Below are positions 25,316 to 34,745 of a stretch of 35,133 nucleotides of DNA, in pieces; within the stretch, counting starts at the first letter, position 1; every line of letters starts with the position of its first letter. Position numbers and translations under genes: made by a program. Below the pieces are notes generated by a model, which was not told the origin of the DNA, searched no databases, and saw nothing but the letters and a program-made list of their open reading frames with translations. The stretch comes from Candidatus Pacearchaeota archaeon (GTDB taxonomy: Archaea > Nanobdellota > Nanobdellia > Pacearchaeales > GW2011-AR1), in assembly GCA_016866995.1 (NCBI GenBank), contig VGKQ01000009.1, positions 1 to 35,133 of the forward strand, in the 5' to 3' direction.

Positions 25316-28300
25316 ATGCCTGAAGAATTAACTGATGAATTGGAAATAAATCTTAATCCAGGAATTCCCGCTCTCCCGAGATTTGAGGACAAGACAAAAG
25401 TGGATGTAAGATATGCTTTGATTTCTCCGTATGCGTTTGCCCATATTTACTGGAACAAGGAAGCTTCTGAATTAATTTATGAATTAGAAGAGCCGCTCCT
25501 GACTGAAAATGAGAGGGAGATGCTTGAAGAAATTGAGAGAAGCATGAGAGAGATTATCAACATAAATGTTCTTGTGGAAAGAACACCCGAAGCAATGATA
25601 GCTTATGTGAGCAAGACAGCAAAACTTTTAATTTCAGAATTGAACTTAAAGGTGAACAAGGAAGAATATAAAAAAATTTCATACTACTTGTACAGGGATT
25701 TTATTGGATTAAATGAGATTGAAGCATTGTCAAAAGATTATTTTATTGAGGATATAGAGTGCAATGGAGTTAATACTCCCATTTATATTATCCACAGAAT
25801 TTACAGGAATTTGAAAACAAACATTATGTATAAAGATGTGGAATATCTCGCTTCATTTGTCGAAAAGCTTGCACAAAGAACAGGAAGATATATTTCGTAT
25901 GCTTCTCCTCTTCTTGACGGCACCTTGCCAGATGGAAGCAGAGTAAATGCAACATATACAGCAGATGTTACAAGCAAAGGGCCTACTTTCTGCTTTAAAA
26001 ATGGGTATATTCAGATGAGCGACGGGAGAATCAGGGATATAAAAGAGCTTTTTGAAGAATGCAAAAAAAATTTTGGGTTCAAAATTGAGGGCGGAAATGA
26101 AGTTATTGAGGTTTCAAATTTTGCATGCCAGGGAGTTGATGAGGAAACACTTGAACAGACAATCTGCAGGATTAAGTCAATCATAAAGCTGAAAGCTCCT
26201 GATAAAATTGTAAGATTAAAGCTTGAAGACGGCGGAGAGATAGAAGTAACTCAAAATCACATATTTCATGTTGCAGATGACTCTTTAAAAATGGTTGAAG
26301 CAAAAAACCTGAAGAAAGGAATGATTCTGCCTATGCCCAAGGAAATAGGCATAAATGGTTACAGGCAGAAAATAGATGTTTACACATTAATCAAAGATTT
26401 TTCCTATTTAAAAAAAGTATGCATAATAAGCACAGAGGCTGTGAAAAATATTGTGAAGGAAATAAACCTGGGCAGGCAGGCTCTGTCCCAAAAATATGGT
26501 GTGGGAGAATCATATTTTTATGAAGTAATAAGCAGGGGAAATTCAATATCTTTCAATGTGCTTGACAAGATATGCAGTGAAAGAAACATAAATTTTTCAG
26601 AACTTGGAGAAATTTCGCTGAATGTTTATGGCGGAGGAACAAGGGAAAAAACAAAGTCAATCAAGATACCAAAAGAAATTGATGAGGATTTGGCTTATCT
26701 TGCAGGGGCGCTGATAAGTGACGGGTATTTGTCAAAAGAGTTTATTGACTTTTCATGCTATGAAGAAGGTTTTAAGAATTCAATAAAGGACAGGCTGTTA
26801 AAAAAATTTGGAAGATTTGATTCTTATTATAATGACAACAGGATTTATTTATGCAACCTTTTTGCGCCGTATTTTTTCAACAGGGTGTTTGGAATTCCAA
26901 TAGGGAAAAAATCAAGAATAGTTGAAATTCCAGAGGCAATATTCAAGTCTGACAATAATGTTATTGCCTCATTTATTAAAGGATTGTTTGACGGGGACGG
27001 AACATGCAAGTCAGGGTTAAGCTACAAGACATTTTCAAAAAAACTCGCAGAAGGGCTGGCATATCTTCTCGGAAGAATTGGAATTTATTCTTATTTAAGG
27101 CAGGACAAAGAAGGATACAGAGTCAGCATACCTTCTCCCTATTATTTGAAATTCAAAGAAGTTGTGGGGTTTGGCAATATTTACAAAAAAAGCTGCCTGA
27201 ATATTCTGACTGAAAAACAAACAGAGCATAAAACATTTATCAGGCATAGCAGAATTCCTGGAGCTCCGATTTTAGAAATAATAAGGAAACTGAAGCTGAA
27301 TAAAAGCAAATTGACAAATAATTGCGGTTTCAGCCTAAATCGGTTTTATTACAGCTCATTTTCAAGATATTTTGCAGAAAGATTATGCGAAGAAATAAAA
27401 AAGGAAAAAAATTCAGGGATTGTGAAAAAAGAGCTGGAATATATAGGCTGGCTTTTAAATTCAGGGCAGGAATTTGTGAGAATTGAAGATGTTGAAATTC
27501 TTGATAATAAAGATGAAGTTTATGATATTGAAATAGAGCCTTGTAAATTTTTTATAGCAGGAAACAAGCCAATGAATATTTTTGACACAATCAGAAAGTT
27601 CACAAAAGTTCCGTGGACGCCTCCGCAGCTTGTTTCTTTGAATACGCTTTCTCCTGAAATGCTTGCTTACTTCTGGATACTTGTGCAGTATAAGTGCAAT
27701 ATTCTGATTACAGGCGGGACAGCTTCTGGAAAAACAACATTACTGAATGCAATATCTTTTTTTATCCCCCCAGAAGCAAGAGTTGTTTCTATTGAAGATA
27801 CACGAGAGATTAATCTGTCAAGAGAAAACTGGCTTCCAAGTGTTGCAAGAACAGCAATCGGGACAGGGCAGACAGGAGAGGTTGATTTATTCAGCTTGTT
27901 GAAAAACTCGTTCAGGCAGAACCCGGAATATGTGATAGTTGGAGAGGTGAGAGGCAAGGAAGCTTTTGTCTTATTTCAAGGAATGGCTTCAGGACACTCT
28001 TCAATATCAACAATGCACGCTGATTCTGTTGACACTGTCATAAAAAGACTTGAAACTCCTCCAATCGAGCTTTCTCCTACTTTAGTAAATACTCTTGATG
28101 CTGTTGCAATAATGACTCATGCTATTGTGAAAAAGCAGCAGACAAGAAGATTAAGAGAAATAGTTGAAATTGTCAAGGTAGACCCTGAAGGAGTTGCACT
28201 GACAAATACTCCATTTATGTGGAACCCTTCAGAGGACAGATTTTATTTTAAAAAAGACTCAAGAGTTCTTGACAAGATTACATTAAGATATGGATTATCA

Positions 28301-28453
28301 AGAGAGGAGATACAGAAAGATTTTGAAAACCGCGCCAAGTTAATATTTGAACTGTTCAAGAGAAAAGTATTTAATTTTGAGGAAGTCCAGAACATAATTA
28401 ATGAATATTACAAGAACCCCGAGAGTGTTCTCGCTAAATATGATATCAAATAA
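25316..28453 (+). CDS. Type IV pilus/archaellum secretion ATPase (ArlI/TadA-like) interrupted by an intein
   Basis: A 1045-residue precursor. Removing residues 226-757 leaves a 513-residue hexameric ATPase that drives filament assembly at the inner face of the membrane. N-domain: VDVRYALISPYAFAHIYW and YELEEPLLTENE, standard for archaeal ArlI/TadA ATPases, then SPLLDGTLPDGSRVNATY. After the intein: TIRKFTKVPWTPPQLV, Walker A GGTASGKTT (residues ~800-808), Asp box VVSIEDTREINL, Walker B-type EYVIVGEVRGKEA, and His box ASGHSSISTMHADS. All catalytic elements are intact once spliced. Two TadC/ArlJ-like genes follow, with two tiny genes between. The intein splits the enzyme before Walker A, so activity should depend on splicing. 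Confidence 0.95.
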   Translation: MPEELTDELEINLNPGIPALPRFEDKTKVDVRYALISPYAFAHIYWNKEASELIYELEEPLLTENEREMLEEIERSMREIININVLVERTPEAMIAYVSKTAKLLISELNLKVNKEEYKKISYYLYRDFIGLNEIEALSKDYFIEDIECNGVNTPIYIIHRIYRNLKTNIMYKDVEYLASFVEKLAQRTGRYISYASPLLDGTLPDGSRVNATYTADVTSKGPTFCFKNGYIQMSDGRIRDIKELFEECKKNFGFKIEGGNEVIEVSNFACQGVDEETLEQTICRIKSIIKLKAPDKIVRLKLEDGGEIEVTQNHIFHVADDSLKMVEAKNLKKGMILPMPKEIGINGYRQKIDVYTLIKDFSYLKKVCIISTEAVKNIVKEINLGRQALSQKYGVGESYFYEVISRGNSISFNVLDKICSERNINFSELGEISLNVYGGGTREKTKSIKIPKEIDEDLAYLAGALISDGYLSKEFIDFSCYEEGFKNSIKDRLLKKFGRFDSYYNDNRIYLCNLFAPYFFNRVFGIPIGKKSRIVEIPEAIFKSDNNVIASFIKGLFDGDGTCKSGLSYKTFSKKLAEGLAYLLGRIGIYSYLRQDKEGYRVSIPSPYYLKFKEVVGFGNIYKKSCLNILTEKQTEHKTFIRHSRIPGAPILEIIRKLKLNKSKLTNNCGFSLNRFYYSSFSRYFAERLCEEIKKEKNSGIVKKELEYIGWLLNSGQEFVRIEDVEILDNKDEVYDIEIEPCKFFIAGNKPMNIFDTIRKFTKVPWTPPQLVSLNTLSPEMLAYFWILVQYKCNILITGGTASGKTTLLNAISFFIPPEARVVSIEDTREINLSRENWLPSVARTAIGTGQTGEVDLFSLLKNSFRQNPEYVIVGEVRGKEAFVLFQGMASGHSSISTMHADSVDTVIKRLETPPIELSPTLVNTLDAVAIMTHAIVKKQQTRRLREIVEIVKVDPEGVALTNTPFMWNPSEDRFYFKKDSRVLDKITLRYGLSREEIQKDFENRAKLIFELFKRKVFNFEEVQNIINEYYKNPESVLAKYDIK
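25991..27586 (+). other. Intein with LAGLIDADG endonuclease and HTH insert (532 residues)
   Basis: In-frame insertion between host Phe225 and Thr758, at the conserved GPTF/TIRKF junction. Block A begins at Cys226 (CFKNGYIQMSDGRIRDIKEL). Block B has EVTQNHIFHV with Thr312 and His315. The endonuclease domain has both motifs, LAYLAGALISDGY (Asp469) and FIKGLFDGDGT (Asp559/Asp561), so it looks active. An HTH-like stretch lies at ~385-430 (RQALSQKYGVGESYFYEVIS). The C-terminus is unusual: block F reads VYDIEIEPCKFFIAGN without the usual His, and block G reads PMNIFD|T, with Phe for the penultimate His and Asp for the terminal Asn. The +1 residue is Thr. Confidence 0.92.
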
Positions 28454-31916: not shown

Positions 31917-32057
31917 ATGAAAAGAAATAAAGAAAAAACCGCAGTGATAAGTTGCGGGTTCGATGAAATGACAAACCACCTTACCAAAGTCAATTATTAT
32001 AATTATAAGAAGATTATAAATCTTTCGGTGTGCAAAGCCGGGTTGGTGAAATGGTAG
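31917..32057 (+). CDS. Small reading frame that runs into the tRNA gene
   Basis: Forty-six residues (MKRNKEKTAVISCGFDEMTNHL...), starting 1 nt after the pilin-like gene's stop and ending at a TAG inside the tRNA D-loop. Past this single TAG the frame is open to a TGA at 32157-32159 that overlaps the ATG at 32156. If 32036-32140 were excised (105 nt, in frame) the frame would read through to a 45-residue product ending NPKLKK. Alternatively it is an untranslated remnant. Weakly supported as a gene; recorded because of its geometry. Confidence 0.3.
   Translation: MKRNKEKTAVISCGFDEMTNHLTKVNYYNYKKIINLSVCKAGLVKW
32001..32009 (+). promoter_or_regulatory. Possible tRNA promoter (TATA)
   Basis: AATTATAAG, centred about 25 nt before 32030 and 32 nt before the first tRNA base. 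A second candidate, TTATAAAT (32015-32022), is too close. So the tRNA could have its own promoter inside the operon. Confidence 0.45.
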
Positions 32058-32135
32058 CCACGCTGGCCTGATAAGCCAGAGACTTACCAAAGTCATGTGG
32101 GTTCGAAATCTCTGACGAGAATCCCACACCCAGCG
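32037..32135 (+). tRNA. Class II tRNA with GAU anticodon and a T-loop intron
   Basis: After removing a 14-nt intron (32108-32121) a full tRNA folds. Acceptor GCCGGGT/ACCCAGC, six of seven pairs with a C-A mismatch at 3-70. D-arm GTG/CAC with TGG in the loop. Anticodon arm CTGGC-CTGATAA-GCCAG, five pairs, anticodon GAT (GAU) at 32070-32072. Long variable arm GACTT-ACCA-AAGTC. T-arm GTGGG-TTCGAAT-CCCAC. Discriminator G73 at 32135, no encoded CCA. The anticodon loop is the standard archaeal tRNA-Ile one, but a long variable arm and G73 are serine-type (the D-arm looks leucine-like). The amino acid it carries is therefore uncertain. Confidence 0.85.
32108..32121 (+). other. 14-nt tRNA intron in a canonical BHB, position 59/60
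   Basis: The T-stem GTGGG/CCCAC is the outer helix. TTCG (32102-32105) pairs with CGAG (32116-32119), one G-U, as the 4-bp central helix. Three-nt bulges AAA (32106-32108) and AAT (32120-32122) lie on opposite strands. TC/GA closes a 3-nt loop in the intron. Cutting after the second base of each bulge and joining gives the normal 7-nt T-loop TTCGAAT. Confidence 0.85.
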
Positions 32136-32155
32136 CACTTTCCGAAACTAAAAAA

Positions 32156-32812: not shown

Positions 32813-33220
32813 ATGAGATATAAATTCCTAGAGCATACAGCAGATGTAAAGTTTCAGGCTTATGGAAAAAGCCTGAATGAGGCATTTGAAAATTCAGCTT
32901 TAGCTTTAGTTGAGATTATGACTAAAAAAACCAAGATTAAATCAAGATTAAAGAAAAAAATAAAAGTTTCTGGAAAGGATAATTCAAGTTTGCTGTATAA
33001 TTTTCTTGAAGAATTCTTGTTTTTATATGACTCGCAAAGTTTTGTTTTAAGTAAGATAAATAAAATTAAAATTAAAGGCGACAAGATTGAAGCAGAAGTT
33101 TATGGAGATAATGCTGGAAATTACAAGATATCGCAGGATGTGAAAGCTGTAACTTACAATTCTATGTTTGTGAAGAAACTTGGAAATAAGTTTGTTGCTC
33201 AGGTTGTCTTAGATGTATAA
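32813..33220 (+). CDS. Archease, cofactor of RtcB
   Basis: A 135-residue protein starting MRYKFLEHTADVKFQAYGKSL, the archease signature (EHTADv.f.a.G.sl.eaF..aa), with LLYNFLEEFLFLYDSQSFVL and VKAVTYNSMFVKK typical of the family. It promotes guanylylation and multiple turnover of RtcB during tRNA splicing. A TATA box (TTATTTAAATAC) lies 25 nt before the ATG. RtcB follows 100 nt downstream under its own TATA box. Confidence 0.95.
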   Translation: MRYKFLEHTADVKFQAYGKSLNEAFENSALALVEIMTKKTKIKSRLKKKIKVSGKDNSSLLYNFLEEFLFLYDSQSFVLSKINKIKIKGDKIEAEVYGDNAGNYKISQDVKAVTYNSMFVKKLGNKFVAQVVLDV

Positions 33221-33320: not shown

Positions 33321-34745
33321 ATGACAAAGAAAATTGAATTGAAGAAAATTTCAGAAGTAGAATGGGAAATTCCTAAAACTGGGAAGATGAACGTGCCTGT
33401 AAGAATTTTTGCATCAGAAAAATTGCTTGAAAAGATGAAAGAAGATGAGACTTTCAAACAAGCAAGTAATGTTGCAATGTTGCCTGGAATTGTGAAAAAT
33501 ATAATTCTTCTTCCAGATTCGCATTGCGGATATGGAATGCCAATTGGAGGAGTTGCTGCTTTTGATATTAACTCTGGTGTTATTTCTCCTGGAATGTGCG
33601 GGTATGATATAAATTGCGGAATTAGGATTCTTTCTACTAATTTAACTCTGAAAGATATAGAGAAAAAGAAAAAAGAAATTATAGACAAGCTATTCAGAGA
33701 TGTTCCAAGTGGTGTTGGAGAAAAAGGAAGAATTAAATTAACTCGTGAAGAATTAAATGAAGTTCTTGTTGAAGGGGCTCAGTGGGCTGTTAAAAAAGGT
33801 TATGGAGAAGATGAGGACTGGAAACATACAGAAGATAATGGAAAAATTTTAGGTGCAAATCCTGCTGATGTTTCAGACAGAGCAAGAGCAAGAGGGATGC
33901 CTCAATTAGGAAGTTTAGGAGCAGGAAATCATTTTTTAGAAGTTCAAGTTGTTGATGAAATCTTCGACGAGAAAATTGCAAAAGCTTTTGGACTGGAAAA
34001 AGGGCAGGTTACAATTGGAATTCATTGCGGCTCTAGAGGATTGGGACATCAAGTAGCTTCTGATTATATTAAGTTAATGGAAGAAAAATATGGATGGCCT
34101 GAGCAGGATAGAGAGTTAGTAAATGCTCTGATAAATTCTGACTTAGGAAAAAAATATTTTTCAGCAATGGCGTGTGCTGCTAATTTTGCATTTGCAAACC
34201 GGCAGTTAATAACTTACTGGGTTAGAGAAACAATGAAAAGAATTTTTCCTAAATTTAAATCAAAATTAATTTATGATGTCTGCCATAATATTGTAAAATT
34301 TGAAGAGCATTTTGTTAATGGGAAAATTAAAAAACTGTGCATACATCGAAAAGGAGCTACTCGCTCGTTTGGAGCAGGAAGAAAGGAAATTCCAGAAGAT
34401 TACAGGAAAATAGGGCAGCCTGTAATAATTCCAGGAAGCATGGGAACTGCTTCTTATGTTTTAGTTGGGACTGGAAAAGCAGAGGAAGTTTCATTTGCTA
34501 GTGTGGCTCACGGGGCAGGCAGAGTTTCCTCGCGTTCTGCTGCATTGAGAAATTTAAGAGGAGAGGAAGTTAAAAAAGAATTGAATGATAAAGGAATTGA
34601 AGTTGTTTCTGGGAGCTGGAAGGGGCTGGCAGAAGAAGCTCCTTCTGTGTATAAAGATATAGATGAAGTTGTTTCTGTCTCGCATAAAGCTGGAATTGGA
34701 AATCTTATAGCTCGAGTCAAGCCTGTTGCTGTGATGAAAGGATAG
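33321..34745 (+). CDS. rtcB: RtcB 3'-phosphate RNA ligase (tRNA splicing ligase)
   Basis: A 474-residue protein, full length. It joins the 2',3'-cyclic phosphate and 5'-OH ends left by the splicing endonuclease, using GTP and Mn2+. Conserved segments: PDSHCGYGMPIGGVAAFD, SPGMCGYDINCGIR (the metal-binding Cys), GSLGAGNHFLEVQ, IHCGSRGLGHQV, YDVCHNIVKFE, and HRKGATRSFGAG with the guanylylated His, then PGSMGTASYVL. A BHB-intron tRNA lies 1.2 kb upstream. Convergent with the truncated gene at the right edge. Confidence 0.97.
   Translation: MTKKIELKKISEVEWEIPKTGKMNVPVRIFASEKLLEKMKEDETFKQASNVAMLPGIVKNIILLPDSHCGYGMPIGGVAAFDINSGVISPGMCGYDINCGIRILSTNLTLKDIEKKKKEIIDKLFRDVPSGVGEKGRIKLTREELNEVLVEGAQWAVKKGYGEDEDWKHTEDNGKILGANPADVSDRARARGMPQLGSLGAGNHFLEVQVVDEIFDEKIAKAFGLEKGQVTIGIHCGSRGLGHQVASDYIKLMEEKYGWPEQDRELVNALINSDLGKKYFSAMACAANFAFANRQLITYWVRETMKRIFPKFKSKLIYDVCHNIVKFEEHFVNGKIKKLCIHRKGATRSFGAGRKEIPEDYRKIGQPVIIPGSMGTASYVLVGTGKAEEVSFASVAHGAGRVSSRSAALRNLRGEEVKKELNDKGIEVVSGSWKGLAEEAPSVYKDIDEVVSVSHKAGIGNLIARVKPVAVMKG

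Follow-up and report, generated by a model that had tools for sequence, protein, structure and literature searches.

Serine-like class II tRNA genes with foreign anticodons, each adjoined by a putative antisense RNA gene, in DPANN archaea

The window, the whole 35,133-nt stretch of DNA that was analyzed, corresponds to contig C9 in the draft genome (G000; 1.06 Mb; 85.6% complete) of a Candidatus Pacearchaeota archaeon. It carries a tRNA gene and, beside it, a putative antisense RNA gene (Table 1). The tRNA acceptor stem is formed by GCCGGGT (32037-32043) and ACCCAGC (32128-32134), followed by G73. The D stem has 3 bp (GTG/CAC), as has that of tRNA-Ser L027 in the same genome (GCG/CGC). The anticodon arm, CTGGC-CTGATAA-GCCAG (32063-32079), presents the isoleucine loop CTGATAA, the T stem is GTGGG/CCCAC, and the variable (V) region of 17 nt (32080-32096) contains a 5-bp stem, GACTT/AAGTC. 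The long V arm and the cloverleaf place the tRNA in class II, and the fold, the GAU loop and the serine-type G73 are all as described in an earlier note on this DNA. G73, the V arm and a serine-like body occur with GAU instead of a serine anticodon, while the isoleucine anticodon occurs without the class I body and A73 of the genome's own tRNA-Ile.

Table 1. Features of the tRNA locus and of the neighboring antisense-like unit (positions within the window)
Feature	Position	Strand	Remarks
Class II serine-type tRNA gene	32037..32135	+	Anticodon GAU (32070-32072); G73 at 32135
T-loop intron, bulge-helix-loop type	32108..32121	+	14 nt; UUCG (32102-32105) with CGAG; bulge AAU
Outer stem, 5' half GTGC	32030..32033	+	Pairs with GCAC (32135-32138), AAA bulge between
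Outer stem, 3' half GCAC	32135..32138	+	First base is G73
Predicted antisense small RNA	31928..31992	-	About 60 nt, ends inferred (about 31992 to about 31930); complements tRNA V arm and D loop
Exact 13-nt complement of tRNA V arm	31980..31992	-	CTTACCAAAGTCA; tRNA copy 32083-32095
D-loop-complementary segment	31962..31973	-	7 nt exact, TGAAATG
Intrinsic-terminator-like hairpin	31933..31957	-	CCGCA/TGCGG, then TTTTTT; 2/60 shuffles as good
Conserved TATA-like box	32014..32021	.	TTATAAAT, then CTTTCGG

ARAGORN did not report this tRNA in the raw window, and the Rfam tRNA model gave the unspliced gene 20.1 bits, short of its cut-off of 29, because 14 nt split the T loop. After their removal ARAGORN called tRNA-Ile(gat), which bears out the need for splicing anticipated earlier. 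The insert fits the archaeal bulge-helix-loop motif, with UUCG/CGAG, the 3-nt bulge AAU and then CCCAC, and its predicted excision leaves the T loop TTCGAAT. A pattern search for such T-loop introns found three genes in this genome. The V region was also considered as a second intron and rejected: it is without the bulge-helix motif, and the V arms remain hairpins across the family members described below. No Rfam family matched the window locus at the gathering threshold, and only weak chance matches were seen nearby. Genes for Archease (32813-33220) and the RtcB tRNA-splicing ligase (33321-34745) lie directly downstream of the tRNA; this proximity may be coincidental, since the paralog on contig C24 is not beside them. 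Elsewhere in the window, a T2SSE/PilB-like ATPase of 1045 aa (25316-28453) contains an intein with a LAGLIDADG domain.

The genome has 37 Rfam tRNA matches. A separate normal tRNA-Ile(GAU), for which the earlier note had proposed to look, is present (L022), as is tRNA-Ile(UAU) (L019); both are class I with A73 and the common acceptor GAGCCTG. The tRNA-Ser genes, also to be checked, comprise CGA, GGA, GCU and UGA. Another of the matches (G000:C24:3486-3596), just before gyrB, is a class II paralog with anticodon UAU. It shares with the window tRNA the acceptor including a C3-A70 mismatch, the T-loop intron position and the outer stem GTGC-AAA...GCAC. A further relative, a class I tRNA with anticodon CAC, lies within the korA-korB operon (C16).

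Related genomes contain such genes too, and what had been taken for a lone gene is part of a gene family with at least 13 members, 12 of them class II and one class I, in eight genomes from six genera of one taxonomic family. The searches were non-exhaustive and all of the genomes are draft assemblies. A covariance model (R1) built from the window and C24 genes matched close homologs in two other genera, G178 and G150. The G178 gene, with loop TTGAAAA, is the same as that in JAHIVP010000023 (Nanoarchaeota MAG), and the G150 gene, with loop TTAATAA, the same as that in JAFCDK010000014 (Ca. Pacearchaeota MAG). A further model (R2) and a hairpin pattern added the class I gene C16 and class II genes in G188, G108, G210 and G095 (two), as well as a second one each in G178 and G150. 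A class II member in G211 (L135) has a leucine CAA anticodon, yet G73. Outside the window's own genome there are ten class II members in seven related genomes. In G178, G150 and G188 a tRNA lies between gyrB and gyrA; the gyrA of G178 (L071 596-4441) appears, from its translation only, to contain an intein-like insertion. A strict pattern for members with TGATAC had no match in 371 genomes of the phylum, a sample without the known carriers, so it says little about absence.

The anticodons of the 12 class II members are GAU (five), AAU (two), GAA (two), UAU, GUC and CAA; none is a serine anticodon, while every member has G73. The serine profile outscored the leucine profile in all 11 members scored, using isotype profiles trained on 8 Ser and 30 Leu sequences. 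A serine identity is therefore likely from sequence comparison; the suggestion of serine or leucine in the earlier note is upheld in its first part and less so in its second. The tRNA fold is held by compensatory change despite the differing anticodons: eight pairs in the helices are altered on both sides, and the covariation score was reached by none of 500 shuffles (4 sequences). The C3-A70 mismatch, found in both the window and C24 copies, had been read as a possible hint of decay or of a special identity. By itself it does not indicate decay, and it may be a half-way state, because the two closest relatives have C-G (G178) and U-A (G150) at this position. The T-loop intron is identical in position and length in the C24, G178 and G150 members, and across the order sampled such introns are found mostly in these modules. 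At L104 (G156:C5:9966-10010), a seemingly ordinary class I tRNA is interrupted by an intron near the anticodon and by another in the T loop. The outer stem GTGC/GCAC is retained in C24, C16 and G178, with a G-U variant in G150.

The most important feature of the locus, absent from the earlier note, is the adjacent antisense-RNA-like unit (31930-31992, minus strand). Beside every family member lies a short stretch that partially copies the D loop and the V or anticodon loop of that tRNA. At all 11 class II loci tested, an own-tRNA match was found at -103 to -44 from the tRNA, as against 0 of 300 shuffles for each. In the 11 x 11 cross-matrix the diagonal dominates, such that a unit almost always matches its own tRNA alone. 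The L135 locus has an own-tRNA match as well (score 40), and at C16 the unit lies downstream of the tRNA, with exact runs of 11 and 9 nt. The loops are identical, while the stems are often re-paired with other sequence, as in G095 (AATAGA-CTGTCAA-TCTATT versus ATCGA-CTGTCAA-TCGAT). No such unit adjoins the 29 ordinary tRNAs of the genome, where the top score was a 14-nt A-rich match, or the ordinary Leu and Ser loci of relatives, with the exception of one tRNA-Leu fragment in L129 (G016:C21). There, about 20 nt of the 5' end of tRNA-Leu lie on the minus strand just upstream of the intact gene, as a plain truncated tandem copy.

Terminator-like sites, consisting of a hairpin and a U tract, were found at 11 of 13 units on the minus strand and at none of the 13 on the plus strand. 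Following this test, the copy was no longer considered as a second sense-strand tRNA or guide, and the antisense reading was favored. A stricter generic terminator scan (loop limit 8) did not pick up the window hairpin. The conserved TATA box is followed by NTTTYGG, which on the opposite strand reads as a BRE, and the spacing suits a start of transcription to the left. At a distance of only about 20 nt, the box lies too near the tRNA to act as its promoter in the window, C24, G178 and G150. Palindromy of a shared promoter was not clearly above that of ordinary promoters, and a strongly palindromic shared promoter was rejected, being convincing in G108 and G178b only. Because of the cognate matches, the minus-strand terminators and the TATA/BRE spacing taken together, the neighboring unit is regarded as a putative small antisense RNA gene on the minus strand, facing away from the tRNA. 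Predicted duplex energies (RNAduplex) ranked the cognate tRNA third of 39 for the window unit, third of 39 for C24 and first for C16, a ranking biased to longer, intron-bearing tRNAs. With the cognate first in one of three modules, the energies are non-discriminating in this genome and were not taken as proof of specific pairing.

The joint encoding of two putative RNA genes is supported by the own-tRNA matches and the minus-strand terminators, and the existence of a module of tRNA and antisense unit is, at the level of sequence, well supported. Expression, splicing, charging, pairing and toxicity of the module RNAs are inferred. The reading preferred here, with a probability of roughly 0.4, is that of a missense serine-type tRNA together with a dedicated antisense RNA that restrains it, a combination comparable to an RNA–RNA toxin–antitoxin pair. 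The host endonuclease would splice the T-loop intron from the tRNA precursor. Archaeal SerRS recognizes the V arm and the discriminator, not the anticodon. SerRS would thus charge the family tRNA with serine, and, as a consequence of charging without anticodon reading, a GAU tRNA would read AUC and AUU and place serine at isoleucine codons. A small RNA from the minus strand, ended by the hairpin and U tract, would complement the D loop and the V (or anticodon) loop. It would pair with the tRNA or its precursor at these exposed loops, leaving the tRNA inactive. Were the short-lived antisense RNA lost, the missense tRNA would be set free, as an addiction module or stress switch of RNA–RNA toxin–antitoxin type. 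The broader proposal of a new RNA-only toxin–antitoxin class in DPANN archaea is tentative and may well be wrong; in it the toxin would be a missense tRNA, the antitoxin a kissing RNA antisense to the tRNA's D and V or anticodon loops, and the modules would spread into operons as small cassettes.

Some loci show possible signs of insertion. At five of the 12 loci, a stretch of 18-26 nt from the start of a downstream gene is directly repeated to the left of the module; the null maximum was 16. These loci are C24, both G150 members, G178 and C16, with repeats at L070 684/1044, L040 3181/3637, L098 1370/2093 and L071 about 5066/4444 (minus). An extra gene is enclosed in G178 and C16, and passenger genes within repeats sometimes encode a GNAT or a small secreted protein. 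The repeats suggest that modules enter operons as small cassettes, although no enzyme for this step was found; the flanking repeat of the window copy is non-significant. A SINE-like or retro-element was set aside, as reverse transcriptase was not found in G000 and showed no association with carriers. Viral origin was likewise rejected, viral-contig patterns having given nothing, chance coding matches without tRNAs, or one chance match.

The same repeats and the patchy, multi-copy distribution also suit decaying or selfish tRNA copies, that is, an insertion cassette spreading into operons, whose half-copies would be functionless leftovers of local duplication. The truncated tandem copy at the ordinary tRNA-Leu of L129 and the C3-A70 mismatch point the same way; from this mismatch and an odd TATA spacing, the window copy itself could be decaying. 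Nevertheless, the constant distance, the loop-only identity with re-paired stems and the minus-strand terminators are unlike debris, and the compensatory changes in the tRNA helices argue against it. This explanation is considered unlikely.

A similarly unlikely alternative is a serine-type tRNA with a drifting, unselected anticodon, used off the ribosome as a serine donor or regulator, or inactive, with the antisense copy as an ordinary level regulator. The members near gyrB-gyrA carry UAU, AAU, GAA and GAU, so the anticodon drifts while the body is retained. Moreover, the nev-tRNAs of nematodes mature normally, with no detectable mistranslation in vivo (PMC4300185). Silent or off-ribosome use is opposed by anticodon loops that are otherwise canonical, by an anticodon stem held by compensation and by the absence of a candidate user enzyme beside the genes.

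Open frames run through the modules in the sense direction. Such an ORF was found in 9 of 11 modules, against about 4% expected in shuffles. At L071, L113, L100, L096, L121, L040 and L098, frames of 74-87 codons open at an ATG upstream of the antisense unit, cross both this unit and the tRNA, and often stop at the start of the next gene. A conserved protein across the tRNA was rejected: because the reading frames differ between members, the common part of the modules is not protein. The sense ORF may be needed for translation coupling in the operon; it is left unexplained by the antisense model. In L112 (1-3021; G210:C39) the module lies in frame within an ORF of >1000 aa that begins an intein-like domain, and inspection by eye suggests a RelBE-like pair on the reverse strand of this stretch. 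The co-direction of tRNA and copy in operons, often within one open frame, and hairpins on both strands would be compatible with a sense-strand tRNA mimic (mRNA or DNA) that binds a protein of the tRNA, such as a synthetase, modifying enzyme or transposase. The restriction of terminator-like sites to the minus strand speaks against it, and each match follows its cognate tRNA in sequence, something that binding by one shared protein would not call for; a mimic is accordingly held to be very unlikely. An odd yet genuine tRNA-Ile charged by IleRS, as the normal GAU loop and the ARAGORN call would have it, is most improbable given the V arm and G73, the two normal tRNA-Ile already in the genome with A73 and a different acceptor, and homologs in which a body of this type carries a Phe, Asp or Leu anticodon.

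If the antisense-restrained missense tRNA is real, cells carry tRNAs made for on-demand code-breaking, with a dedicated antisense RNA as the safety catch. Archaea would then have their own equivalent of the nematode nev-tRNAs, one whose means of control is visible and which could for that reason explain how such tRNAs are tolerated. Members with T-loop introns are easily overlooked in genomes, because ARAGORN does not see them in genomic sequence. No description of a tRNA pairing with its own antisense RNA in this way was found in the open-access literature, and a two-RNA system of this kind looks to be previously undescribed.

The comparison with nev-tRNAs made in the earlier note is apt. The nematode genes, for example nev-tRNA-Ile(UAU) (PMC4300185), likewise combine a class II body with a foreign anticodon, including Ile(UAU), and are conserved beside normal tRNAs. 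They are leucine-type, whereas the genes described here are serine-like and archaeal, with T-loop introns, an antisense partner and several anticodons. Introns at non-canonical positions are known in archaeal tRNAs, and the bulge-helix type in the T loop with two predicted cut sites resembles them; the difference is that the T-loop pattern is here mainly module-bound in the order sampled. Type I antisense antitoxins are similar in having a cis-encoded antisense RNA with a terminator beside its target. Here, however, a tRNA would take the place of the toxin mRNA as target, and pairing would proceed via two separate loops. In CreTA of Haloarcula (type VIII), CreT RNA sequesters a tRNA and CreA acts via Cascade (PMC12737573). 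A CRISPR-linked CreTA was rejected for the present modules, as Cas1 was not found in seven carrier genomes (drafts, 71-86% complete). Both systems are archaeal, and both would consist of an RNA that hurts translation through tRNA biology and an RNA that restrains it; in the present case a tRNA would act as the toxin, and its partner is complementary to that tRNA. The nev-tRNAs are thus the nearest tRNA analog, and type VIII systems such as CreTA the nearest RNA–RNA system.
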